64,000 nucleotides of DNA from a virus. How positions within the stretch are numbered: position 1 is the first letter of the stretch; the number at the start of each line of letters is the position of its first letter. This document shows, in pieces, positions 1 to 28,693 of the stretch. A model generated the notes under the pieces. That model did not search any database. It worked only from the letters and a program-made list of their open reading frames with translations, and had not been told where the DNA came from. The position numbers were made by a program, and so were the translations under genes. The stretch is taken from IMG/VR virus record IMGVR_UViG_3300008261_001864, positions 1 to 64,000 of that record; one strand, 5' to 3'.

Positions 1-1193
1 GCCGTGACGCGGATCGCCTTGATGGTCTGGTCCGAGGGGGCGTCGAACGAGTAGGGTCGCAGGATCGTCTCCACGATGCCCCGCAAGGCACGCGCCCCCG
101 TGGGCCGCTTCCGTGCCTCTGCCGCGATAGCCCGCAGGGCTTCCTCGTCGAACTGGAGGTCAATGCCGTCCATGCTAAAGAGCGCCTGGAACTGCTTGAC
201 GATGGCGTTCTTCGGCTCCGTCAGGATGCGGACCATTTCCTGCTCGGTGAGTTCCAGCGTGGTGGTCAGGACCGGCAGACGCCCCATGAGTTCGGGGATG
301 AGGCCGAACTCCAGAACGTCGTCCTCCGTCGCCTGTAGATAGACGTCGGTACGAGACAGCTTCTTGGCCTCACGCGCTCCGAAGCCGATGCCCGCCCCAC
401 GGTTGACCCGCTTCTCGATGACCTCCTCAAGGCCCGCAAACGATCCCGCACACACGAACAGAACGTTCGTGGTGTCGAAGGCATCCCCGTACATAGACAT
501 CCCGCCCCGTGAACCCATGCCACGCGGGACAACCATCTTGGAGCCTTCCAGAAGTTTGAGGAGCGCCTGCTGGACCCCCTCGCCGCTGACGTCGCGGTAC
601 CCCGTGGCCCCACGCCCAGACTTGCGGGCCAGCTTGTCGAACTCGTCGATGAAGATGATGCCCCATTGGGCACGCTCCACTTCACCGTCGGCGTCCTGCA
701 CCAACCCTTGCAGGAGGCTCTCAACGTCGTCGCCAACGTATCCGGCCTGCGTGAGACGGGTGGCATCCCCGACGAAGAACGGGACCTTGAGCATACGGGC
801 GATGCTGCGAGCCAACTCCGTCTTGCCGGTTCCGCTCGGACCCATCAACAGGATGTTGGACTTCTGAACCTCCACCCCGAGGTCGAGTCCGTTCTTGACT
901 GCTTCCCGCCGCTTGTAGTGGTTATAGACCGCGATGGCCAGGTCTGTCTTGGCCTTGTCCTGCGCGATAACGTGCCCGTCGAGGATCGCCTTGATCTCTC
1001 GTGGCTTGCGGAGAGGTTCTTCCTTGGCGGCCGTCTGTACGTCGGCCTTCTGGGACTGCGTGTACGCCTTGTGCCCGTCCTCCAGACAGCGGTTGCAGAT
1101 GTAGGGGCCACCGTCGTTGCCGATCAGAGCCTTGACCTCGTTACGGGGCCGGTTGCAGAAGCCACACTTGGCGGTTGTCTTGGTGGTCGTCAT
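1..1193 (-). CDS. clpX: ATP-dependent unfoldase ClpX (3' end cut by window)
   Basis: AAA+ unfoldase that feeds proteins to the ClpP protease. About 397 codons are visible and the C-terminus runs off the window; E. coli ClpX has 424 residues, so little is missing. The N-terminus has a zinc-binding C4 set (CGFC and CNRC). Then come HVIAQDKAK, Walker A GPSGTGKTE, the pore loop GYVGDD, Walker B IIFIDEFDK, the ClpP-docking IGF loop (GAGIGFGA) and the EFGLIPELMGRLP segment. ATG at 1193 follows an AGAGGGG ribosome site. A terminator separates it from the upstream hydrolase gene, and a promoter-like element lies between them, so it is probably its own unit. All key motifs look intact. No clpP is seen here, so it may use the host ClpP (inference). 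Confidence 0.93.
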   Translation of the reverse strand, partial: MTTTKTTAKCGFCNRPRNEVKALIGNDGGPYICNRCLEDGHKAYTQSQKADVQTAAKEEPLRKPREIKAILDGHVIAQDKAKTDLAIAVYNHYKRREAVKNGLDLGVEVQKSNILLMGPSGTGKTELARSIARMLKVPFFVGDATRLTQAGYVGDDVESLLQGLVQDADGEVERAQWGIIFIDEFDKLARKSGRGATGYRDVSGEGVQQALLKLLEGSKMVVPRGMGSRGGMSMYGDAFDTTNVLFVCAGSFAGLEEVIEKRVNRGAGIGFGAREAKKLSRTDVYLQATEDDVLEFGLIPELMGRLPVLTTTLELTEQEMVRILTEPKNAIVKQFQALFSMDGIDLQFDEEALRAIAAEARKRPTGARALRGIVETILRPYSFDAPSDQTIKAIRVT

Positions 1194-1362: not shown

Positions 1363-2109
1363 TTAGACGTCCGCGTACACGATGCAGTCGGCGTCCCAGA
1401 CAAGCCCATCGCACTTGATCTCGAAGGGGTTGGCTGTAATCGCACAGACGCCACCATGCCCGAAATCGTTGTGGGACTCCTTGCCGTAGCGGTTCGACAC
1501 CAACAGGGTGATGTTGTTGTCCCGCACAAAGTCGATCCATGCGATGGCGGGAAACCCGCCGTTCCCCCAATTTGACGAGAACGCAACGAGGTCCGCATCG
1601 CCCGACTCGTAGAAGTCAGACCACTTATCGTTCTTGCGGTCCCTGACGTCACGGCAGATGAGTAGCCCGACCTTCTTGGTGCCATGCTCGCCAAAGTCAC
1701 ACGATAGGATCGGGGGGTTGGCTCGGCCTTCATCGGCCCATAGCCAATCGTTACCCCACGGGTTCACCTTCTGGTAACTGACCCACTGACCGTTCGGTGC
1801 GACCAACACCTGCGAGTTGTGAACCTTGCCGGTCTGCGGGACCTTCTCGACCATCCCCCAGACGACGTGGACGCCCAGCCGCTCCGACAAGGCTTTCATG
1901 ACCTTGAAGGTCTGGCCTTCCGGGATAGGCTCCGCACACTCGGCGGCCTCGGCCTTCGACATGAAGGAGTATCCCGTGGTTGCCAGTTCCGGCAGCACCA
2001 CCAGCTTGGCCCCGTTCTGGGCCGCTTCCTTCACAAAGCCCGCGAGCTTCCGCAGGTTGTCCTGCATGGCCTTGAAAACGGGGGCGAACTGGACGACGGC
2101 AACCTTCAT
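1363..2109 (-). CDS. carbon-nitrogen hydrolase (nitrilase superfamily)
   Basis: 248 residues, the usual length for this fold. The Glu-Lys-Cys triad can be placed at E41 (VVLPELATTGY), K114 (SYQKVNPWG) and C152 (LLICRDVR). Members cut non-peptide C-N bonds such as those of nitriles, amides, carbamoyl groups or deaminated glutathione; the substrate cannot be told from sequence. ATG at 2109 is preceded by AGGAGATA. It sits downstream of an unknown gene and ThyX and is followed at once by a strong terminator. Such enzymes are uncommon in phages; a role in nucleotide, NAD or polyamine metabolism is only a guess. Confidence 0.88.
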   Translation of the reverse strand: MKVAVVQFAPVFKAMQDNLRKLAGFVKEAAQNGAKLVVLPELATTGYSFMSKAEAAECAEPIPEGQTFKVMKALSERLGVHVVWGMVEKVPQTGKVHNSQVLVAPNGQWVSYQKVNPWGNDWLWADEGRANPPILSCDFGEHGTKKVGLLICRDVRDRKNDKWSDFYESGDADLVAFSSNWGNGGFPAIAWIDFVRDNNITLLVSNRYGKESHNDFGHGGVCAITANPFEIKCDGLVWDADCIVYADV

Positions 2110-3950: not shown

Positions 3951-4665
3951 GGTAAATCTCCAACTTCTTGAGCCAGTAGATGATCGACATGGGCTGAGTT
4001 CCGAATCGGGCGGCGATCTTATGGGGCGACAGCCCCTCCCCGTACAGGCGAATCACCTCATCGACGTCAACTCGGCCGTGTGTGGGCGCTCCCATGACCT
4101 CGCTGACGAGGTTCCCACAGACCTGTTCTCGGAGGTCGGGGTCCGCATAGACGTAGTTGCGGAGTGTATACATCGAGACGCCACAGACCTCGGCCAACTC
4201 CCGCCATGTCCTCCCCACCGCGAGCCGGATGATCTCATCGTCGGGGGGCTTCTTGTGGGACTTGTCCTTCAAGACCACCCCGTGCTTGTCCGCGATCAGT
4301 TTGACCTCGGCGGGAGTGGTGCCAATCTCGGTGGCGATCTCCTTGGCGGTACGCTCGGGTGACAAAGCCGCCTGTATGCGGGCGTGCCGCTCCTCTCGCT
4401 TCGCATCCGAGAGCCGTGGCAGGTCGGCTCCAGCCTTCTTGCGCCATTGGGAAACCGCCTGCCGCGACACTCCAAGGCGGGCCTGGACCTCATCGGTGGT
4501 CAGTTCGTACAACTTCTCGGTCAGCCAGTAGTGTCGCAACTCGTCGGGATCAGGGTAACGGGCATCCGGCCCCAACCCCCGCACAGCCTCGGCCTTGTTG
4601 GGGAACATCCCGTACCGCACAGGCGCACTCCCCTGCTGAGAGCAGAACAGCTTGAGGCCACTCAT
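3913..4665 (-). CDS. DNA-binding protein with about four tandem helix-turn-helix motifs
   Basis: 250 residues. Four HTH-like units can be read: LTTDEVQARLGVSRQAVSQW, RTAKEIATEIGTTPAEVKLI, RTWRELAEVCGVSMYTLRNY and LSPHKIAARFGTQPMSIIYW, each about 28 residues and separated by charged linkers. This array suggests sequence-specific binding over a long site, as a regulator or a DNA-organising protein. No catalytic domain is seen. Its ATG overlaps the stop of the alpha-CTD-like gene by four bases (ATGA), so both are made from one message, which supports a transcription role for the pair. Confidence 0.72.
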   Translation of the reverse strand: MSGLKLFCSQQGSAPVRYGMFPNKAEAVRGLGPDARYPDPDELRHYWLTEKLYELTTDEVQARLGVSRQAVSQWRKKAGADLPRLSDAKREERHARIQAALSPERTAKEIATEIGTTPAEVKLIADKHGVVLKDKSHKKPPDDEIIRLAVGRTWRELAEVCGVSMYTLRNYVYADPDLREQVCGNLVSEVMGAPTHGRVDVDEVIRLYGEGLSPHKIAARFGTQPMSIIYWLKKLEIYRGAEKAEGVAGR

Positions 4666-5090
4666 AGCGTCTCCTTGATCTGGAGGGACAGCCGCTCCAT
4701 CTCCGCGATCAGTTCCCGCTGCCGCTCCATGAGAGCCAACACCTTCTCCTCCTTGGTCGGCTCGGGCGGCTTAGGCGGGGGCGGCGGCTCCACCTTGACC
4801 CACAGGGGAAGCTGCGGCGCTCCAAGGAACAGACCGAGTTCCTCCAGGTAGAACTCGATGATCTCCACGGTCTGGCGTCCGAGATTCTGGATTTTCAGCA
4901 ACTCGAACCTTGACATCTTAGCAAGGTCGGCAAGTGTCTTGATGGCCCGACGGTCAAACACCCCCTGTGCGCGGTTGCCGAACGGCACCACATGAACGGG
5001 CGTCTCCAGCAACTTCTCTCGCGGCAACGCCTTCAAGTGAGCAAATAGAGGCTTGTCCTTGGTGTAAATCTTCATCGCTCTAGCGGCCAT
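4662..5090 (-). CDS. RNA polymerase alpha-CTD-like protein
   Basis: 142 residues. Residues about 30-82 resemble the C-terminal domain of bacterial RNA polymerase alpha: a first helix, DRRAIKTLADLAKMSRFELL, then the helix-hairpin-helix IQNLGRQTVEIIEFYLEELG (compare IRNFGQKSIDEVKEKLEELG in bacterial alpha). A proline-rich linker (PPPPPKPPEP) leads to a C-terminal helix that may form a coiled coil. The N-terminal alpha domain that joins the polymerase is absent. The start is ATG at 5090 with AGGAGG; upstream in-frame ATGs lack such a site. It may bind promoter DNA or sigma in place of host alpha (inference). Confidence 0.75.
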   Translation of the reverse strand: MAARAMKIYTKDKPLFAHLKALPREKLLETPVHVVPFGNRAQGVFDRRAIKTLADLAKMSRFELLKIQNLGRQTVEIIEFYLEELGLFLGAPQLPLWVKVEPPPPPKPPEPTKEEKVLALMERQRELIAEMERLSLQIKETL

Positions 5091-5133
5091 GTGTACCTCC
5101 TGCGCCGCTATCAGAGCGGCAGCATGGGGTAAC

Positions 5134-5162
5134 AGGTAACACAGCGTAAGAGCAACTGTCAA
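5134..5162 (-). promoter_or_regulatory. candidate sigma70-like promoter for the alpha-CTD/HTH genes
   Basis: Minus strand has a perfect TTGACA, 17 bases, then TTACCT, 44 bases before the ATG at 5090. The -35 is consensus but the -10 is weak. The flanking direct repeat TGTTACC-TGTTACC could be an activator or repressor site. Confidence 0.4.
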
Positions 5163-5172
5163 GCGTTGTCGA

Positions 5173-5481
5173 TCAATCTTTTGACAAATCCACACTGGCC
5201 CGCTGGATGGCGGCTTCCAGCGAGGCGGGCAGGGCGTCATCGTCGAGGAAGTCATCGACGTCGAAGGCAGACCGCATGAGGCGTGAGAAGGCGTCATCGG
5301 AGTCCCGCCAGCCGTCGATGAAGTGCCGCAGGGCAGCGGTCACTTGATCCTGCTCCTCTTGCGTGCGGGCACGACGGTACATGGCCTCGAAGCGGGCCAC
5401 CTCGTCGGGTTTCATGTTGGTGGTGAGTCCTCGGAACCGAAGGACGTCGATGAGCAGGTTCTTCCGCTTCCGCTTGTTCAT
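5173..5481 (-). CDS. hypothetical protein, acidic C-terminus
   Basis: 102 residues, no family recognised. The N-terminus is very basic (MNKRKRKNLL), the middle is helical with many Arg/Glu, and the C-terminal part is acidic (DVDDFLDDDALP). The ATG at 5481 follows GGTGTAAGAGGGG, whose TAA is also the stop of the upstream gene. Size and charge pattern are typical of small phage regulators, but nothing points to one function. Confidence 0.7.
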   Translation of the reverse strand: MNKRKRKNLLIDVLRFRGLTTNMKPDEVARFEAMYRRARTQEEQDQVTAALRHFIDGWRDSDDAFSRLMRSAFDVDDFLDDDALPASLEAAIQRASVDLSKD

Positions 5482-9680: not shown

Positions 9681-12532
9681 GCACCCCTCTCCTCCCCTAC
9701 CTTGCCGTCCGATAGGTTCTTCTCCAGTAGTTGCTCTGCGAACCGTCCCGCGTTGACCCGTATCTTGAGGTTGGGGTCGATCAGTACGTTGCCAAACCCG
9801 TCGATGAGCCGCAGGTAGTGGCCCGTGTCCACCGTCATCCAACGCCCGATGGCCTCCCTGACCTGTGCGACCGAGAGCGCCGTCGTGGTCTTGAGCCGTA
9901 CCGTGGCGGTCCTCACCTTCTCGGTACCCTGCTGGGCAGGTGCGGAGGGCGGCGGGGGTGCCGTGGGGGCCACCGCCACAGGTGCCGCCGCAGGTGCGGG
10001 TGTTGTCTGGGGGGCGACCTCAACGGCTGGCTCGACCTGCTTGGCTTCGACGGCTACTGCGGTGCCCTGCGGGACATAGGGCAAGAGGGCGGCCGGTACC
10101 TTCTTGTAAACGTACCCGTGAGAGATGAAACCACCCTCGGGAGGCTGCTCGCCTTCCTTGGCCCTGTGGCACCCGAACTCGGCACCCCAAGACTCTCCCA
10201 GCAGCGGGTCCGTCACCAACGGGACCAGCCACTTGGGCGAGTAGGGCGGCCTCGCCATGATGGTGGGCTTTTCCATCTCGCGGGTCAACACGGGGATGAC
10301 CTCGAACACGAGATCATGCCGCACCTCAAAGACCAACTCATCGTGGACGGTCAGGAGCATCCTGACCGCATCCGCTGCGTCCTTGAGCCAGCCTTGGCGG
10401 TACAGTTCCTTGTGGATCAGCACCATGCTGATCTTCATGATGTCGGCACCGCTACCCTGGATCGGGTAGTTCGTCGCATGACGCTCGCCAGACGCCCGTA
10501 GGCTCCGAACGTCCTCCTCGGTCTGGACAATCTTGCCCCATGAGTCCTTCTGGCCCTTCTGGAGGTTGGCGTCGGGAATCGCAATCCATCGCCCGAACGC
10601 CGTCCACACTCCAAGGTCACGCTTGACCTTCTCGTGCTGACCCTTGACCCAGTTGGCGAACGTGGACACGGCCTTGTCGAACGCCTGCTTGCGCCGCTGG
10701 GCCTCCAGCCGGTTGCAGCCGGTCGCCCGCATGATGGAGGCGGGGCCGCCGCCGTACACAAGGGCGAAGTTCGCCACCTTGCCCATCTTGCGTTCGTCCT
10801 TGGTGACCTCCTTCTTGTTGAAGAACGCCCTCGCCGTGATGCTGTGGAGGTCGCCGTCGCCGTTCTGGAACTCCTTGATCCAGACAGGCTCGTTGGAGAG
10901 GTTCGTGACGATACGGAGTTCCTCGGCGGCGTAGTCGCACTTGACCATCGTGTATCCCGGCCGGGCCACGAAACTCGTGCGGACGTCCGAGGTGCCAGGG
11001 ATGCCGTGGATCGGGATGCCGCTGAACCCGTCCTCCGCGTTGCCTGCGGGGGCCGAGAAACGTCCCGTCGCTGCACCCGTCTGTTTGAACGAGAACCGCA
11101 GTTCATCGTTACGGTCAGGGTTCGCGGACAGGCTCTCCAGATAGGTACCCAGCATCTTATCTTCTTCGCGGTACCCGTCCACCCACTCCAGCACCTCGGG
11201 GGCGTTGACGCCCAACTCCTCCCTGATGGCCTTGAGGCTCTCGTAGTCCGTCTTGTACTGCTGGGACTTCTCGTTCAAGGGAGGCTTGGGGTTGATGTTC
11301 AACCCCCGCTCGCCAAAGAGGAACTCGCCAAGTTGCTTGGTGGAGCCAGGCTCGAACGCCTCAAAGCCCTTGGAGGTCGCCAATGCAACGATCTTGTCGC
11401 GGTACTCCTGCCACTTGGCCCTGTGGGCGTTCCGCAGCCCCTCCAGACGGCTCCGATCCACCCTGACCTTGTTACGCTCCATGACGCGGACGACCTGCGT
11501 GACCTGCTTCTCCAGCCGGTAGATGAACTTTCGACCCGTCGGGTCCCTGTCGATGACAGGCAGGAGGTCGGGTCTGGCACACAGGAGCCGCGTACAGATG
11601 GCGTCGGAGCCAGCGTACTTGACGACACCTGGCTCGTCAGGGGAGAGGCTCGGGAAACTGATCTTCCGCGATGTCGGGAACAGTTCCTTGAGCTTTATCA
11701 TCTCGTAGGGCGACCCGTCGGGGGCGCGTAGCAACTGTGCGGCCTTGTCCTTGAGGGACAGGTTGTGGTCGCCCGAGTACAACGTGAAGTAGGCGAGCAT
11801 CCCGTCCTCGAAGGAGTCGGGGTGCCAGAAGTCAATGCCCGTCACAGGGTACAGGAACTCTTGGTCGAACTTGGCGTGCCAGAAGTCGATCACCACCCTC
11901 GGGGGCGTCTCGAAGTCCTTGAAGGCCAGCGGGTCTGTCTGGCCGGGCTTGGGGGTCGGCTGCGCTGCCCGACAGAGCCGTGTGATGGCGGCCTCGACAC
12001 GCTCGACGGGTTTCACATTGAGGTCAGGGCCACCGTCCAGCGCCTTGTGTCGGACGGGGATGTAGTAACCCGTCTTGGCCTCACCGACCGCGATACAGAA
12101 GCCGACGATCTGATGGTGGGTGCGGGGCCGTCCCTGTGCGTCCCACTCGATGCGGTTGTCCAGCCCTTCCGTCTCAAGGTCCAGCGAACACTTGCCGTTC
12201 GCCAACGCCTCATCGACGATACGCTCAACCTCGTCCGAGGTACGCACCAGCACGAACTCGTGGTACTTCATCCACGGCTTCGTGATGTCGGGCACCTCCC
12301 GCTCGGCCTTGATGCCGGTGGCACTCAGGAACGATTCGAGATCGTCGCCCTCGTCCTCATCCACCTTGAAAAGGCTGGTCTGTTTCGTTGTCTCGGAGGC
12401 GACAGCTTCCCGCAACTCGGACACGAGGTCCAAGTCATCGGGTTCCTCGGCGGGTGGGGTGGGTACCTTCGCGGGTGCGGCTTCCTCGTCCAACAGGGCT
12501 GCGATGTCATCCAAATCGTCGATTTCAGTCAT
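9677..12532 (-). CDS. polA: family A DNA polymerase with 3'-5' exonuclease and C-terminal extension
   Basis: 951 residues. Exonuclease motifs are SLDLETEGL near 116-124 (Exo I), DFWHAKFDQEF (Exo II) and YAGSDAICTRLL (Exo III). Polymerase motif A is VKCDYAAEELR, motif B KMGKVANFALVYGG and motif C LLTVHDELVF. An acidic N-terminus (about 1-80) carries DEGDDLESFLSATG near 60-73, also found in the protein at 13870. The polymerase core ends near residue 785. A further 165 residues hold a Pro/Ala linker and a small alpha/beta-looking domain (TATVRLKTTTAL to EKNLSDGK) that I do not recognise. The ATG at 12532 has GGAG upstream. The same transcript carries the helicases and primase. Confidence 0.95.
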   Translation of the reverse strand: MTEIDDLDDIAALLDEEAAPAKVPTPPAEEPDDLDLVSELREAVASETTKQTSLFKVDEDEGDDLESFLSATGIKAEREVPDITKPWMKYHEFVLVRTSDEVERIVDEALANGKCSLDLETEGLDNRIEWDAQGRPRTHHQIVGFCIAVGEAKTGYYIPVRHKALDGGPDLNVKPVERVEAAITRLCRAAQPTPKPGQTDPLAFKDFETPPRVVIDFWHAKFDQEFLYPVTGIDFWHPDSFEDGMLAYFTLYSGDHNLSLKDKAAQLLRAPDGSPYEMIKLKELFPTSRKISFPSLSPDEPGVVKYAGSDAICTRLLCARPDLLPVIDRDPTGRKFIYRLEKQVTQVVRVMERNKVRVDRSRLEGLRNAHRAKWQEYRDKIVALATSKGFEAFEPGSTKQLGEFLFGERGLNINPKPPLNEKSQQYKTDYESLKAIREELGVNAPEVLEWVDGYREEDKMLGTYLESLSANPDRNDELRFSFKQTGAATGRFSAPAGNAEDGFSGIPIHGIPGTSDVRTSFVARPGYTMVKCDYAAEELRIVTNLSNEPVWIKEFQNGDGDLHSITARAFFNKKEVTKDERKMGKVANFALVYGGGPASIMRATGCNRLEAQRRKQAFDKAVSTFANWVKGQHEKVKRDLGVWTAFGRWIAIPDANLQKGQKDSWGKIVQTEEDVRSLRASGERHATNYPIQGSGADIMKISMVLIHKELYRQGWLKDAADAVRMLLTVHDELVFEVRHDLVFEVIPVLTREMEKPTIMARPPYSPKWLVPLVTDPLLGESWGAEFGCHRAKEGEQPPEGGFISHGYVYKKVPAALLPYVPQGTAVAVEAKQVEPAVEVAPQTTPAPAAAPVAVAPTAPPPPSAPAQQGTEKVRTATVRLKTTTALSVAQVREAIGRWMTVDTGHYLRLIDGFGNVLIDPNLKIRVNAGRFAEQLLEKNLSDGKVGEERGA

Positions 12533-12534
12533 GG

Positions 12535-12951
12535 TTACGGCTCCTCCACGATCACCACATACACCGACTCCCGCCACAGCCGGATGAGTTCCTGCCCGAT
12601 TTCTGGAGGCACCCCGACGGGTTCAAAACAGGTAGGCATCTTGGGGGCTTTCGGGATGCAGTCGGCCTTACGGTAGAAAATGCACTTGCCCGACAACGCG
12701 CATTGGCGCGAGTCGGGCGACAGTCGGTGCAGGATGAGTTGTGGGGATGGCCCCAGAGCCTTTACGAGCGGACTCGTCCAGCCATGCAGCGCGTGATCGA
12801 CCATCTCCTTGGTGGTGACCAGCAGGTACTCGGCGTAGCGGCTGGTCCTCAGAGGCTCCCAAGCGGCTTCCCAGACGCCAGCCTTGCTGCGAACCAGCAT
12901 GAGGTGGAGGTCGCCCATCTCACGGGTCTGGAGTTTGATCTGTCGAGCCAT
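12535..12951 (-). CDS. hypothetical protein with four cysteines
   Basis: 138 residues, unknown family. A beta-rich N-terminal half (MARQIKLQTREMGDLHLMLV) precedes a Cys group C84-C90-C98-C108 (CALSGKCIFYRKADCIPK) that could hold zinc or an iron-sulphur cluster. The C-terminus is helical (EIGQELIRLWRES). The ATG overlaps the glycosyltransferase stop by one base, and the polymerase starts two bases after its stop, so it belongs to the replication operon. Confidence 0.7.
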   Translation of the reverse strand: MARQIKLQTREMGDLHLMLVRSKAGVWEAAWEPLRTSRYAEYLLVTTKEMVDHALHGWTSPLVKALGPSPQLILHRLSPDSRQCALSGKCIFYRKADCIPKAPKMPTCFEPVGVPPEIGQELIRLWRESVYVVIVEEP

Positions 12952-13880
12952 CAGTCTTGCTCGTCGTCGTCGCCGTAGCCCTCCTCAACGACGGGAGCGG
13001 GTCCAACTCGACCCTGCTGACGGTCAGCCAGCACCATCCCGAAGTTGTTGACCCCCTGCGGGATCACGAGGCCCGCCTTGCGGCGCAGCACGTTGGTACG
13101 AAAGGGGCGGTAGTCCACATGGTGGTGCCACCGTCGGAACTTCCAGACCACCTCCGCAACGTCGGGGTGCATGGCGGCGAGCATCCTGCTCTTGTTGAGC
13201 GTACCCTCGATCTCGTAGAACTCTCGGGTGTTGCCGCCCGTCATCCGCTGGGTCGCCACCTTCCCACACAGGAAGGCGTTGAACTGCACGGTCACCCACT
13301 TGTCCTTCAAAACCCGCAGGGACAGGTCGGTGTCCTCGTTGTAGCGCCCCCGCCAACGGTACTGGATGTCGTTGCGGATCAGTAGGCACGAGTAGATACG
13401 GGTGTTCAGCACATAGGGGGGCAGAGCATCGACGGCCTTGGCGAACCCTTGGTAGTTGAAGCCCGCGACCGCGACATTCTCGTACCGTTCCACAAAGTCC
13501 TCGGCGGCTCGAAAGACGCTGCCCGTCTCACAGACGATGCGGGTGTTGCGGTTCATCCTGTAGAAATGCTCGAAGTTGTCGTCCATCACCCAATGCCACG
13601 CGGCCCCCTCCGAGATCGCATGATCCCAAGCGAAGTTGCGTGCGGGGCCTGGCCCCTTGCTCTTGGTGGTCCCAAGATCATCGAAGGCGTCGTACTCCTC
13701 GATGTACCGTGGGGGTAGGATGAGTAGCTTGTCGGCTCCGACCTCGGCGGCGTACAGGTCGAACTCGGGTTCCTCGACGATGATGCGGTACGGGGTCCGC
13801 ATCCGATCCAGCGCCTTGCTGGTCAGCCGCGACTCCCATCGGCCCTTCGACACCACATAGATGGGGTGGCTAGGATTCAT
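12951..13880 (-). CDS. TET-associated-type glycosyltransferase (TAGT-like)
   Basis: 309 residues from MNPSHPIYVVSKGRWESR. The order PIYVVSKGR, TSKAL, YRIIVEEPE, GPGPARNFAWDHA and HWVMDDN (D100-D101, a DxD-like metal site) matches phage glycosyltransferases first noticed next to TET/JBP DNA-base dioxygenases. These are predicted to put sugars on oxidised or hydroxymethylated bases. The C-terminal half has YNEDTDLSLRVL, fitting a GT-A fold acceptor region. The start at 13880 overlaps the upstream stop (13870) and places the conserved strand right at the N-terminus; the alternative at 13910 has no better site. No TET/JBP gene is in this window. It could instead modify a protein. Confidence 0.68.
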   Translation of the reverse strand: MNPSHPIYVVSKGRWESRLTSKALDRMRTPYRIIVEEPEFDLYAAEVGADKLLILPPRYIEEYDAFDDLGTTKSKGPGPARNFAWDHAISEGAAWHWVMDDNFEHFYRMNRNTRIVCETGSVFRAAEDFVERYENVAVAGFNYQGFAKAVDALPPYVLNTRIYSCLLIRNDIQYRWRGRYNEDTDLSLRVLKDKWVTVQFNAFLCGKVATQRMTGGNTREFYEIEGTLNKSRMLAAMHPDVAEVVWKFRRWHHHVDYRPFRTNVLRRKAGLVIPQGVNNFGMVLADRQQGRVGPAPVVEEGYGDDDEQD

Positions 13881-14181
13881 CGACGTACCGCTTGTCGGTG
13901 CCAGGCCCACCCCAATGAGACTTGTAGGGATGCCAGATGCTCTTGGTCTTGGCGTTCAACTTCTGGCCGATGCGGGCCGCGAAGTCGTCGAGGTCCTCCT
14001 GCGAGTTGAAGCGGACCACGATGGTCGCATAGGCCACCTGCTTGTCCTGCACGAACTCGGGCATATTCTGCCACTCACGCCGCCACACAGGCTCGCCCTC
14101 GGGGTCACCAAGGCCCGTGGCCTCCAAAAACGAGTCAATGTCGTCGCCGTCGTCATCTTCCCAACGCCTGTCCTGACTCAT
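13870..14181 (-). CDS. small protein sharing an N-terminal motif with the DNA polymerase
   Basis: 103 residues. The N-terminus DDGDDIDSFLEATGL (10-24) nearly repeats DEGDDLESFLSATGI of the polymerase, and the similarity may go on through a W..xxEFV patch. The rest (YATIVVRFNSQEDLDDFA, then IGQKLNAKTKSIWHP) is a compact alpha/beta unit that I recall from other phage proteins, sometimes fused to DNA-modifying or ParB-like domains; I cannot name it. The ATG overlaps the primase-fragment stop by four bases (ATGA), and its own 3' end overlaps the glycosyltransferase start. It is a likely replisome accessory. Confidence 0.75.
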   Translation of the reverse strand: MSQDRRWEDDDGDDIDSFLEATGLGDPEGEPVWRREWQNMPEFVQDKQVAYATIVVRFNSQEDLDDFAARIGQKLNAKTKSIWHPYKSHWGGPGTDKRYVDES

Positions 14182-19481: not shown

Positions 19482-20408
19482 CTAGGCAACCGCCTCGCTG
19501 TCCACGGTGCGACCGTGACAAACGAAGGGCGTGGCTAGGTCCCACTTACCAGCGGCGATCAGCTTGCTAAGGGCATCCTGCCGGTACACGCACTTCTGGA
19601 CGAGCGGGTTGCTGTTCGCGGCCAACCAAGCCCGACGAACCGCGATGTACTCCTTGACCCACTCCTTTTCGTCACCCCCAGCGGCGGGGGTCGGTTCCTT
19701 GACGGCAGCCTTGTGGGTCGCCACACGGCCAGGGCCCGAATGGATGCAGGTGTCGTAGATGGTCAACAGCCCCAACGCCGACGTGAGGCCAAAGGACTCC
19801 GCGTGCTTGACGGCGGGCGAGAAGTACACCTCGTCGAACACCTCGTCCTGCGCCCGCTGCATGAACGCATCCTTGCCCGCCTTCTTGAGCAGCGCGATCA
19901 GATCGTTCAACCACGCCGGATAGGGACCGCCTGGCGTCACCTTGGTGGACTCATTGGAGGCGATCTGGGGGAGGTACTTCTGGAGGTCGCCCGCCAACGG
20001 GCCGCCCAGAGCGATGTACCGCTTCACCACGAGGTCCAGCGACCCCGCCTTGTCGGTACACTGGTGCTTGCCATACGAGATGCCAGCCCCATCCTTCAAG
20101 ATCGTACACGTTGCGTAACTCTCGGGGGTCGGGACCTTACCCGTCTCGAAGATGGCGAGAACCGCATCAATCGCCTTCTTCTGCGCCGCCGTGTAGGCCA
20201 GCTTGCCCGACTTGGCCGCAGGAGCCGCCTTCGCAGGGGCCGCCCCCTGCTTCAACGACGCCTCATAGGCTAGGCTCTGCTTCTCGGTACCAGCACCGTG
20301 GATGCCGTCGGCCTTACCGACGTTGAATCCATGCTCGTTCAAGAACTCCTGCCACGCCTTGACGGCCTCGCCCTTGTCGCCTTGCTTGGTTCTGATTGGT
20401 GTCGTCAC
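19482..20408 (-). CDS. endolysin: peptidoglycan-binding domain plus GH46-like (chitosanase-type) domain
   Basis: 308 residues. Residues 1-55 (GDKGEAVKAWQEFLNEHGFN, then KADGIHGAGTEKQSL) are a PG_binding_1 repeat. After an Ala/Pro linker, residues 70-308 resemble glycoside hydrolase family 46: E88 in IFETGK and D106 in LKDGAGISYGKHQ are 18 apart, as are the catalytic Glu22 and Asp40 of Streptomyces N174 chitosanase. LGLLTIYDTCIHSG fits the family's second half. Such domains act as cell-wall hydrolases in phages. The start is GTG at 20408 with AGAGGT. No signal peptide, so export should need a holin. The upstream gap carries a palindrome and a G-rich repeat. Confidence 0.82.
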   Translation of the reverse strand: MTTPIRTKQGDKGEAVKAWQEFLNEHGFNVGKADGIHGAGTEKQSLAYEASLKQGAAPAKAAPAAKSGKLAYTAAQKKAIDAVLAIFETGKVPTPESYATCTILKDGAGISYGKHQCTDKAGSLDLVVKRYIALGGPLAGDLQKYLPQIASNESTKVTPGGPYPAWLNDLIALLKKAGKDAFMQRAQDEVFDEVYFSPAVKHAESFGLTSALGLLTIYDTCIHSGPGRVATHKAAVKEPTPAAGGDEKEWVKEYIAVRRAWLAANSNPLVQKCVYRQDALSKLIAAGKWDLATPFVCHGRTVDSEAVA

Positions 20409-24289: not shown

Positions 24290-27200
24290 TTACGGCCCCG
24301 CAAGCTGGATGGTGGACGGATCGAGGTCGGCCTTCACGTTGTCGCGGATCAGCGGGTGTCCCTCGATGCGGTAGTAGTCGAGGGCAGCGTTACCCTCGCC
24401 AACGCCCACGGTCGAGAACGCCACGACGGCGGGCGCATATCCCAACACAGTAGGCCGCTGGACCTGTGTGGCTACCATCATCATCAGTTCGTCGCCAGCC
24501 GAACCCTCATAGACCCCCTTGGGAGTCACGGTGTTGCGAACCAAGTAGGCGACACCAGCCAATACCTTCGTCTCGTCGTTGAAGGGCAGCATGGTACCCA
24601 CGATGCCAGGGGCCACCCACCCACCCGGGTTGTCGCCACTCACCGTATAGCCTGACCCGCCTCGGTTGGTACGGAAGTTCGTGAAGGGTGCCGCAGCATC
24701 GGGGGTCGAGCCGTCCACATGGACAATCATGTTTCCGGCTGCGCCGGAACTGTCGGCCAACCGCACAACGCTCGTGACCTCTAGGCTGGACGAGGGGGCC
24801 ATACCGGCAAACTCACCGACAAGGCTGGGGTTCCCCATCACGGTCTGACCAAGCTGATGCTGCGCGAAGTAAGTGCCGGTGAAGTCCTTGTCACGCCACA
24901 GGGCACCCAAGGGCAACCGCTCCGTCAGGCCGTTGTACCGCGACACATAGGTGTGCGGGAAGTCAGCGGAGAGGAAGGTGTTGCCATAGAAGTTCGGGCG
25001 ATCAGCCGACGGGTTGGTTGGGGGATAGTTGGTGAGGTCCTCTTGACCAAGGTTTCCGAGTGGGTTGACGTCACTCACCTGCCCCGCGATGCGCCCCGTA
25101 CCAGCCGTCGTCATGAAGGGCAACGACGCCAGCACCTCAAAGACCTTCTCGTTCGGCCTCGTCAGCGCCGAGACGTCGGGCTTCGTTGTCGCAAGCTGGT
25201 TGGCGGTACCCGAGTCCAACGGACCCACTAGCTGGCCGATGTCCAAGTTGGAGGTCTGCGTACCCCACGCATCGCCACCATAGGGCGTCCTGCTGTAGTT
25301 GAAGAGAGCCGTGTCGCTGGCAGGTAGCGGGGCCGGAAGTACGCTGACAGGACCAGCCACCATCGCCGTAGTGCCCGCAGCGATGGGGTTGATGTTGTTG
25401 GTGTAGCGGTTGGCAACGTTCGTATCGGCTGCCTGCGTCCGCATCGTCGTGCTGCCCGACGACACATAGCGGGTCAACACGATACGGACCTCCCGCTTCG
25501 TCATGGACGCGATGTTGAACGGAGCCTCCTCGGGCGGCTCCGAGAACGCATCACGGTCAAACCCGAAGATGCTCGCCTCGATGACGTAATCGCCAGCCGA
25601 GAAGTTGGCGAGGGGGTTGGGCGACCGCGACACGTCCAAGCAGGCAGAGTTCAAGATGAACGTCGCATCGCCGTCCTCGTCCACCTCGATCCAAAAGGTC
25701 GGTCCCTGCACGTCCTGCCGCAGCAGGTTGACGGCACCCGTCGGCGGGTCGATGAGTTGGCGGGTCAACGAGTTGAAGGGCGACCCGTTGTCGCGGTAAT
25801 CCGCTGCCTCATAGACACCAAAGAGGCGAGCAATACCGTAGAAGGGCGGCAGTTCAAGGCCGGTCCGACCCATCCCTCGGGGGTCCGAGAAGTGCCGGAT
25901 GCCCGCGTAGTTCTGCCCCGACCGCGAGAAACTGCCGTTGTAGACAGCGGGCGGGTAGGGCGTATTGAGATTCAGGGTCGAGAAGATCGCATAGCTGACG
26001 TTGTTGAGGTACGGGACAAAGTTCCGCTCGGAGTCCGCGAAGGACGAAGCCGTGCCCGAGTAGAACATGAAGTTGATGCCCCGTCCGAACGTCGCTCCAT
26101 CCGAAGGCTGGATGGGAACGTGGACGGCACCGGCCTTCGGGATCAGGTGGGCAGGCAGGCTGACGTACATATTCTTGGAGGACGTCTGCCCGTCCGTCGA
26201 ACCAGAGAACAGGCCCAGCGGGTCTGTCGTCGTCCACTTGGAGGATAGGCCGTCACGCTTGAACCTCGGCATCAACCCTTGCGCGGTACGGATTTCGTAA
26301 CTGAGTCCCGTTTGCGTGACATGGATGGGCCGATCCAACGTCACCGACGCCGTTGCGACGGCCGTGATCGTGTACCGCCCCTGCTGGAAGCCATCCTTGA
26401 TGATAAGCGCCATGCCGACTGTCACGCCCGACAGCGTAAAGTTCTGGGTGGCGTCCGTAAACCCTCTGAAACCAGATGACGTTTGGCCTGCCGTGCCCGC
26501 CAGGAAAACGGTGCCCGTCGAGACGTTCGCAGCGGTACCGTCCATCGTCTTGAGGGTAGTGGGCCACGAGAACCGACGGAACGGCTGCACCACCAAGGTC
26601 TTGGAGCCAGCGTCAACGTAGGACTCGGCGGTGACAGGCAGCGGGCCTGGAACCCCAGCGGGCGGCAAGTCCGCGTACTTGCTCCACGAGGGCGCAAAAG
26701 CCGTGTCCATCCGATAGTTGTCGGCGGGGTAGGAAGCGGCTCGCCGCAGAACCGTTGTGGATGGTCCCTGTAGGTTGACGGAGTGGATCGCATCAGAGAC
26801 GCGAGCCGTACCACGCCCCGCCCCGTAGAGCGCCCAGACCTTGATGAACATTCGGCGGTTTGCCACGGTCGGGAAGCTGTTGACCCCATCGCCCAACGTG
26901 ATGAGCATATCGTCGTTGGCCGTAAACTCCGTCGGAACGGCGTTCGTGGAGGTCACCGTGTAGTACAGGGGCGAGATCGGGTAGGTGTCGCCGTCGAGCC
27001 GCAGTTCAACCGTGAAGTTGACGTCGTTGACCCACCGCACTTGATCGAGGTCCGATCCCAAGCCAGCCTTGAGTTGAGCGATCTCCAACTTCAAGACGTC
27101 GCCGTTGTCAAACTGCGCGGCTCCAATCGTCGAGGGAGCGATCCGCTTGACCTCTAGGTTGAGATCGAACGCCGAGTTGTAGTTGACGGGCGCGGTGCCC

Positions 27201-28693
27201 GTGACCGGCTCGATGACCACCTCAAAGGGCTGGGCAACGATAGCATCCGAGAAGATCAGACGGTTTCCGTCGGGCTGATCCAACTCCGAAACCGCCAGCG
27301 AGGTTCCCGTCGAAACCATGTCCTGATAGGCAACGAGGGTACCCTGCGTACCACCGTTGGACCGCTTCCAGTTGGCCCGCAACTCGCCCTTCAACAGCTT
27401 GTCGAAGTTGTAGCGGAGCAGGGACTCGTAGTTGAAGCCGTTGGGGTTCACGACGTGCCGCAGGTCGAGGATGTCCGTGGACGCCACCTGATCTGCAAAG
27501 AGTCCATCGGGACGGCTCGACAGCACACGGACCACCGACCCCACAGGATGGGCCTCGGGGATCGTCCCAGCCTGACCCCGAAGGACGTTGTTGAGCGTGT
27601 TGCCGGTGGTCCCTTGGTAGGTCAGAATCTCATCGCCAATCTGGATGGTGATGGGCGACAACGAGGCCAACGGGAGCGGGGTGTTGGCGATGTTGGTCAA
27701 CGTGACATTGGTGGCAACCGCGCTGCCCGTGAGTGCTACCGAAAGCGTCGGAGTGACCGAGAACGTCTTGACACCCGTGCGGTCAACCGCCGTGGGGTTC
27801 CTGTTGATGGCCCCGTTCAAGTTGGGGCTGGGATGACCCAACCACACCACGGAGTTGCGACGGAACACCGCGCACAGGGGGATCGCATAGACGTACCCAT
27901 CGACGGTGCCGAGGGCGTTCTGGGTGCCGTCGCCAGCCCGCCAGAGGCCAGCGTCACCCAACTCCTGCCTCATGTTCTGGAAGGTGTAGAGGGTGGGCGA
28001 TGTAGCCGCGCCCTGTCCCTTCACATAGGAGGTGTCGAACCCGTCGGGGAAGTTCGAGAGTCCCACAGGACCCTTCACGACGCGGATTCGGTACTGTAGC
28101 TGGACTCGCTGGCTCGACTCAAAGCCGAGGCTGGGGTCCAAGAGATCGTCGGGCAGGAACGTGTAGCCTCCCTCGACGTTGCCGTAGCGGTACAGGTTGG
28201 ACGACGTAGGCTTGTTGGCCGTCGAAGGGTTGGGGGCCACGCGGGCTTGCCAAACCTCAAGAAACACGAAGTCGGCCCGCTGGTCCCCCGCATTGGCAGG
28301 GGGCGGGTCAAGTGCGATGATGTTGGTGGTGTCGAGATCGTTGGCGGCACCCGGCGGGGTGCCCGTGCGGGTGCCCATCACGGGGACAAGCCACCCATTG
28401 ACGTTCGCCCACATCACAGACTGATTCTCGCCAAGCCGCTGACGCCCAAAACGGAACCAGTTGGACCACATGGGGTTCGTCTGGAAGTCCGCAAGAAGGC
28501 TCGTCTCGTTGCCAAGCCAACCCGACGGCACACCGCTCAATACTCCCTTGCGGGAGACGTCCAGCATCATCTCCTGCAACAGGTTGAACTCCGCGTCCAT
28601 CGGAGGCTTACCCTGTTGCAGGATGACCTCACGGAACTCACGCGCCGTGGGATCGAGAACTCGTGAAACGCCGGGGCCCAGATTCGTCGCCAT
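24290..28693 (-). CDS. giant virion protein, paralogue of the protein at 33060
   Basis: 1467 residues. The first 480 residues share an ordered set of motifs with the 33060-35630 product: QQGKPPMDAEFNLLQ, FVFLEVWQAR, LLDPSLGFESSQRVQLQYRI, LGTVDGYVYAIPL and RPDGLFADQVASTDILDLRH followed by NYESLLRYN. The remaining 980 residues are beta-rich and Thr/Asn/Pro-rich with no recognised domain, ending in YDYRIEGHPLIRDN-like text before LAGP. It is probably a baseplate-attached fibre or its anchor. ATG at 28693 has GGTAGGGA. Four more structural genes lie upstream in the same direction. Confidence 0.8.
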   Translation of the reverse strand: MATNLGPGVSRVLDPTAREFREVILQQGKPPMDAEFNLLQEMMLDVSRKGVLSGVPSGWLGNETSLLADFQTNPMWSNWFRFGRQRLGENQSVMWANVNGWLVPVMGTRTGTPPGAANDLDTTNIIALDPPPANAGDQRADFVFLEVWQARVAPNPSTANKPTSSNLYRYGNVEGGYTFLPDDLLDPSLGFESSQRVQLQYRIRVVKGPVGLSNFPDGFDTSYVKGQGAATSPTLYTFQNMRQELGDAGLWRAGDGTQNALGTVDGYVYAIPLCAVFRRNSVVWLGHPSPNLNGAINRNPTAVDRTGVKTFSVTPTLSVALTGSAVATNVTLTNIANTPLPLASLSPITIQIGDEILTYQGTTGNTLNNVLRGQAGTIPEAHPVGSVVRVLSSRPDGLFADQVASTDILDLRHVVNPNGFNYESLLRYNFDKLLKGELRANWKRSNGGTQGTLVAYQDMVSTGTSLAVSELDQPDGNRLIFSDAIVAQPFEVVIEPVTGTAPVNYNSAFDLNLEVKRIAPSTIGAAQFDNGDVLKLEIAQLKAGLGSDLDQVRWVNDVNFTVELRLDGDTYPISPLYYTVTSTNAVPTEFTANDDMLITLGDGVNSFPTVANRRMFIKVWALYGAGRGTARVSDAIHSVNLQGPSTTVLRRAASYPADNYRMDTAFAPSWSKYADLPPAGVPGPLPVTAESYVDAGSKTLVVQPFRRFSWPTTLKTMDGTAANVSTGTVFLAGTAGQTSSGFRGFTDATQNFTLSGVTVGMALIIKDGFQQGRYTITAVATASVTLDRPIHVTQTGLSYEIRTAQGLMPRFKRDGLSSKWTTTDPLGLFSGSTDGQTSSKNMYVSLPAHLIPKAGAVHVPIQPSDGATFGRGINFMFYSGTASSFADSERNFVPYLNNVSYAIFSTLNLNTPYPPAVYNGSFSRSGQNYAGIRHFSDPRGMGRTGLELPPFYGIARLFGVYEAADYRDNGSPFNSLTRQLIDPPTGAVNLLRQDVQGPTFWIEVDEDGDATFILNSACLDVSRSPNPLANFSAGDYVIEASIFGFDRDAFSEPPEEAPFNIASMTKREVRIVLTRYVSSGSTTMRTQAADTNVANRYTNNINPIAAGTTAMVAGPVSVLPAPLPASDTALFNYSRTPYGGDAWGTQTSNLDIGQLVGPLDSGTANQLATTKPDVSALTRPNEKVFEVLASLPFMTTAGTGRIAGQVSDVNPLGNLGQEDLTNYPPTNPSADRPNFYGNTFLSADFPHTYVSRYNGLTERLPLGALWRDKDFTGTYFAQHQLGQTVMGNPSLVGEFAGMAPSSSLEVTSVVRLADSSGAAGNMIVHVDGSTPDAAAPFTNFRTNRGGSGYTVSGDNPGGWVAPGIVGTMLPFNDETKVLAGVAYLVRNTVTPKGVYEGSAGDELMMMVATQVQRPTVLGYAPAVVAFSTVGVGEGNAALDYYRIEGHPLIRDNVKADLDPSTIQLAGP

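Follow-up and report, generated by a model that had tools for sequence, protein, structure and literature searches.

Jumbo-phage ClpX with a retained AAA+ motor and replaced degron-reading loops, a candidate alternative cap for host ClpP

The ClpX described here is encoded at the left end of a 64,000-nucleotide window, the whole stretch of DNA that was analysed, which corresponds to bases 1–64,000 of a 99,443-bp IMG/VR record lacking terminal repeats. The protein retains its AAA+ motor and the core of its ClpP-docking loop, and both of the loops used by E. coli ClpX to read the ssrA/C-terminal degron have been replaced, as they have throughout its phage lineage. With moderate confidence, it is proposed from these sequence features to be a catalytically competent ClpX that serves as an alternative cap for host ClpP with retuned substrate choice. 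The gene and its upstream surroundings are as follows.

3–1193, minus strand: clpX-like gene encoding 397 aa, truncated at its 3′ end where the contig stops
1313–1344, minus strand: intrinsic-terminator-like hairpin (14-pair stem) with T-run, from a pattern match alone, between the nitrilase-family gene and clpX
1363–2109, minus strand: carbon-nitrogen hydrolase of the nitrilase superfamily (PF00795, 4.4e-23) with the conserved Glu-Lys-Cys triad

The clpX sequence forms a single open frame that begins with ATG at position 1193, contains no stop, and is directly preceded by an AGAGGGG stretch seen by eye. The lack of a stop codon is due to the end of the IMG/VR record at that point. The contig end cuts the gene and, consequently, no sequence can be read to the left of window position 1; judged against relatives, the protein appears to be short by roughly 15–40 C-terminal residues. 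Complete homologues are encoded in L007 (9992–11218, plus strand) and L009. The first-pass annotation had called it a phage-encoded ClpX, and this is confirmed: the curated cut-offs of NCBIfam PRK05342 (474.5 bits versus 359, 2.7e-142) and TIGR00382 (440.5 bits versus 370.75, 6.3e-132) are passed, the Pfam domains zf-C4_ClpX, AAA_2, and ClpB_D2-small are present, and the AlphaFold2 model (pLDDT 84.5) matches ClpXP structures at E values of 1e-36 to 1e-44. The motifs that had been named, including the IGF loop core, GYVG, both Walker motifs, and the N-terminal zinc domain, are all found in the frame.

1086–1166, minus strand: C4 zinc-binding N-terminal domain, Cys10/13/33/36 (PF06689, 4.4e-9), cysteines kept in 9/9 lineage loci
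819–842, minus strand: Walker A GPSGTGKT, residues 118–125
732–743, minus strand: pore-1 loop GYVG, residues 151–154, Tyr153/Val154 equivalents in 9/9 loci
642–659, minus strand: Walker B IIFIDE, residues 179–184
279–281, minus strand: arginine finger, Arg305 (E. coli Arg307)
90–92, minus strand: sensor-2 arginine, Arg368 (E. coli Arg370)

The query is about 48% identical to E. coli ClpX, and it shares with bacterial ClpX the zinc domain, AAA+ motor, GYVG loop, IGF core, arginine finger, sensor 2, and overall structure, whereas Thr199 is replaced by Tyr, the RKH motif is absent, and Val274 is replaced by Glu. In the alignment, Lys125, Asp184, Glu185, Tyr153, Val154, Val202, Gly269, Phe270, Arg307, Arg370, and the four cysteines are kept in all nine lineage loci, that is, the query and L002–L009, among which L002/L003 and L005/L006 look like duplicates. 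By sequence, the AAA+ motor is complete, and the protein is predicted to be catalytically competent.

These eight loci are the closest relatives of the query (61–65% identity, on IMG/VR contigs of up to 529 kb). Bacterial matches mostly lie at 45–50% identity, and the scan of genome contigs contained no bacterial ClpX above 53%, a value reached by a partial match. The maximum-likelihood tree groups the query with its relatives in a monophyletic clade with 100/100 support and a long stem. Purifying selection acts on the gene, the L002/L004 pair giving a dN/dS of 0.09. The clpX neighbours in the window are phage genes, encoding DNA polymerase A, a DnaB-like helicase, a baseplate wedge, a tail protein, ThyX, and NT5C. 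Bacterial contamination or an assembly artefact was considered, since contamination accounts for several of the "phage" clpX records in databases, such as H6 with its tig-clpP-clpX. This explanation was tested and rejected as highly improbable, given the phage neighbours, the distinct clade, and the conservation of the nitrilase-clpX order and the downstream block in independent phage contigs of up to 452 kb.

A nitrilase-superfamily gene precedes clpX in the query as well as in L002, L004, L005, L007, and L009. Nta1 is a member of this superfamily. A link between this neighbour and N-degron formation was set aside, the Nta1 match being weak and generic (8e-8) and the terminator-like hairpin lying between the two genes. 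The genes adjoining clpX in the relatives are not clpP. Two conserved genes lie 3′ of clpX there, represented in L009 by a 449-aa family without any match (11455–12801, plus strand) and a DUF1848 protein (12830–13669, plus strand), and both would be expected immediately past the left end of the window. Elsewhere in the window, the minus strand encodes a protein with an RNA polymerase alpha-CTD-like domain (4662–5297; PF03118, 1.6e-7; no PHROG match), a TET-associated glycosyltransferase (12951–13910; PF20691, 2.9e-47; phrog_842), which suggests glucosylated modified DNA bases, and a member of the chitosanase family, glycosyl hydrolase family 46 (19482–20408), which also shows a weak peptidoglycan-binding domain and is perhaps a lysin.

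The first-pass annotation overlooked that the loops responsible for degron reading are not intact. Two segments are concerned.

579–614, minus strand: pore-2 loop RGATGYRDVSGE, with Tyr at the Thr199 position (codon 597–599)
477–533, minus strand: RKH-loop segment without Arg-Lys-His, variable in length and sequence within the lineage

In E. coli ClpX, Thr199 and the RKH residues contact the ssrA degron; replacement of RKH by AAA abolishes ssrA degradation by ClpXP, and the T199A, V202A, and H230A substitutions strongly raise KM for ssrA substrates (PMC7652416, PMC7112951). The alignment shows Tyr or Phe at the Thr199 position and no Arg228, Lys229, or His230 in any of the nine lineage loci, whereas Thr199 and the three RKH residues occur in 145/145 bacterial ClpX proteins, a sample biased to canonical proteins (80 picked for their resemblance to the query and 60 as the top scorers from two phyla). 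In the AlphaFold model, the flanking strands of the RKH segment (219–222 and 237–240) are retained and the tip is disordered. The segment is also among the most variable parts of the protein within the lineage, in which the IGF core remains constant between variable flanks.

The RKH motif has been described as conserved in ClpX-family enzymes (PMC7112951). However, it is a specificity feature, and His230 is altered in human ClpX too; consequently, its absence was not used against ClpX membership. Human mitochondrial ClpX resembles the phage proteins in missing both Thr199 and His230, a change tied to lost ssrA recognition: it carries Leu at both positions, and loop transplantation is needed before it degrades ssrA-tagged proteins (PMC7652416). 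The resemblance is limited, since position 199 is Tyr or Phe in the lineage and the RKH segment varies there (the human residues are those given in that paper, the human sequence not being part of the alignment). The full ClpX architecture and motor would also suit an ordinary back-up ClpX that sustains host ClpXP on the same substrates through a long infection. This role is regarded as quite improbable, since no lineage member retains any of the four ssrA-reading residues.

The docking loop, which had been annotated as intact, is so only in part.

375–389, minus strand: ClpP-docking core IGFGA, residues 269–273
369–371, minus strand: codon for Glu where E. coli ClpX has Val274, a ClpP contact (PMC7112951)

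The I-G-F core stands, whereas the third ClpP-contact position, Val274, is Glu. The core reads IGF in the query and L/V/M-GF in the relatives, all of these forms occurring in bacteria as well, and the Val274 position is occupied across the lineage by Glu, Asp, Ala, or Ser, which are non-hydrophobic or Ala. The V274A and I268L substitutions severely weaken ClpP binding of E. coli ClpX (PMC7112951). With the Val274 contact lost and V274A binding poorly in E. coli, docking of the lineage proteins to ClpP may therefore be poor.

The gene content of the lineage bears on the choice of partner. No PF00574 match was found in G000–G006 or G008, most of these records being incomplete, and a phage-ClpP profile likewise found none in the same records. 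G006 is probably complete (451,925 bp, with its first and last 273 bases 97.8% identical); it carries one ClpX, and an ORF scan of it contained no ClpP. G007 encodes a divergent ClpP-like protein that keeps Ser and His (L055, 1423–2778, minus strand), and a search of the lineage with this protein as query gave no true ClpP either, so that it is the only ClpP-like protein obtained by any of these searches. A second ClpP-like protein resembling it is also encoded by Lak phages, Phosso, LR756504, and LR756511. No ClpS adaptor was found in the lineage. A self-sufficient phage ClpXP pair of the phage G gp257/258 type was not encountered, there being no true ClpP in G000 or the long relatives. As no true ClpP was found in the lineage records, any ClpP partner of the query protein is most likely that of the host.

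The earlier suggestion that the phage protein redirects host ClpP thus gains support from sequence features, namely the replacement of both degron loops, the retention of the motor and IGF core, and the failure to find a true ClpP in the phage or its long relatives. In the proposed mechanism, the phage ClpX would form hexamers and bind host ClpP as an alternative cap. It would refuse ssrA-type substrates or take them only weakly, and substrates chosen by the phage would enter through either the N-domain or the new loops at the entrance.

The protein could instead work independently of ClpP, acting as an unfoldase or remodelling chaperone on the complexes of phage replication, transcription, or virion assembly. 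This alternative is a serious rival, although the less probable of the two. No ClpP was found in the lineage, whereas among nine well-characterised ClpX-bearing jumbo phages, all of which have a PF00574 match, eight encode a clear ClpP that retains Ser and His, the exception being LR756511, which has a divergent PF00574 match alone. The lost Val274 contact points in the same direction, as does the location of clpX in a gene block for replication and AAA proteins (DNA polymerase A, AAA ATPase). Moreover, Iyer et al. (2021) suggested a translocase or virion-assembly role for phage ClpX (PMC7824862). However, the Gly-Phe-Gly core is kept between variable flanks, which is unexpected if ClpP binding had been abandoned, and other phage ClpX proteins have degraded it, such as L015 and the IGV forms L020, L039, and L043.

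Comparison with other phages places these changes in context. ClpX had been considered rare in phages, which is only partly correct: it recurs among jumbo phages, including phage G, Lak, Atu_ph07, Phosso, PA5oct, and SCTP-2, and has already been discussed there (PMC7824862, PMC6102473). A role in replication control was proposed by the authors describing Atu_ph07 and AP-J-162 (PMC6102473, PMC11242549). In the same tree, jumbo-phage ClpX is polyphyletic overall, with phage G and Lak placed beside bacteria. The ClpX proteins of phage G (gp258, with gp257 as ClpP), Lak, Atu_ph07, and Phosso are likewise jumbo-phage proteins. Nevertheless, these four phages encode a clear ClpP, unlike the query lineage, and the ClpX proteins of phage G, Lak, and LR756511 branch near bacteria and keep both RKH and Thr199. 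The RKH motif has also been lost in PA5oct, SCTP-2, LR756504, and the short marine phage ClpX forms. These belong to lineages separate from the query clade in the tree; moreover, PA5oct, SCTP-2, and LR756504 encode ClpP, and the zinc domain is missing from the marine forms. Lost degron-reading loops in phage ClpX were not reported in the literature searched, although absence there is no proof. What is new here is where the ClpX of this lineage has changed, the presence of ClpX in jumbo phages itself being already known.

Two further records were noted during this comparison. The ClpX of Lak-A1 (MK250016; L145, 2968–5181, plus strand) reads as one 738-aa frame whose AAA domain is interrupted, in frame, by an insert of ~310 residues that is possibly an intein; a Pfam search gave no intein match. 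In the "phage" record L146 (CAKLQH020000005.1), clpX lies within a bacterial tig-clpP-clpX operon, which represents bacterial contamination of the phage collection.

Three large members of the lineage encode full tmRNAs (109–122 bits), a type of phage gene that is already known (PMC4131195, PMC7162821).

G001, 249708–250060: tmRNA (L237), tag ANDNALVPMQMAA
G006, 27073–27435: tmRNA (L239), tag ANDNSIADRLVA
G007, 175160–175518: tmRNA (L238), tag ANDNGTVITALKAAA

These genes allow a phage degron system to be envisaged, in which the phage ClpX, though not necessarily that of the host, would recognise through its new loops a tag written by the lineage tmRNA. Such a system would agree with the variation of both the tag and the RKH segment between lineage members, but it is judged unlikely. 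All lineage tags still have Ala as their last residue, like host-readable degrons, and tmRNA is also present in phage G and LR756511, both of which have unaltered ClpX loops. In addition, the one tmRNA of G006 is accompanied by 48 tRNAs and, according to the ORF scan, by no SmpB, and the query fragment contains no tmRNA. A clearly orthogonal phage tag was set aside in view of the Ala-ended tags and the tmRNAs of jumbo phages with unaltered loops; on the same grounds, a co-evolved pair of tag and reader may or may not exist. It is similarly improbable that a reprogrammed channel exists, in which phage ClpX reads the phage tmRNA tag or other phage degrons and feeds the substrates to host ClpP. 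If such a channel were real, a phage-specific degron code would replace host quality control.

The alternative-cap reading remains the one favoured here. The specificity of ClpX has so far been dissected through laboratory mutants and the human protein, and here a phage lineage has replaced the ssrA-reading residues in nature. The prediction is a protease cap that would escape the host tag and aim ClpP elsewhere. If this is true, giant phages would seize targeted proteolysis, going beyond the carriage of a spare chaperone.
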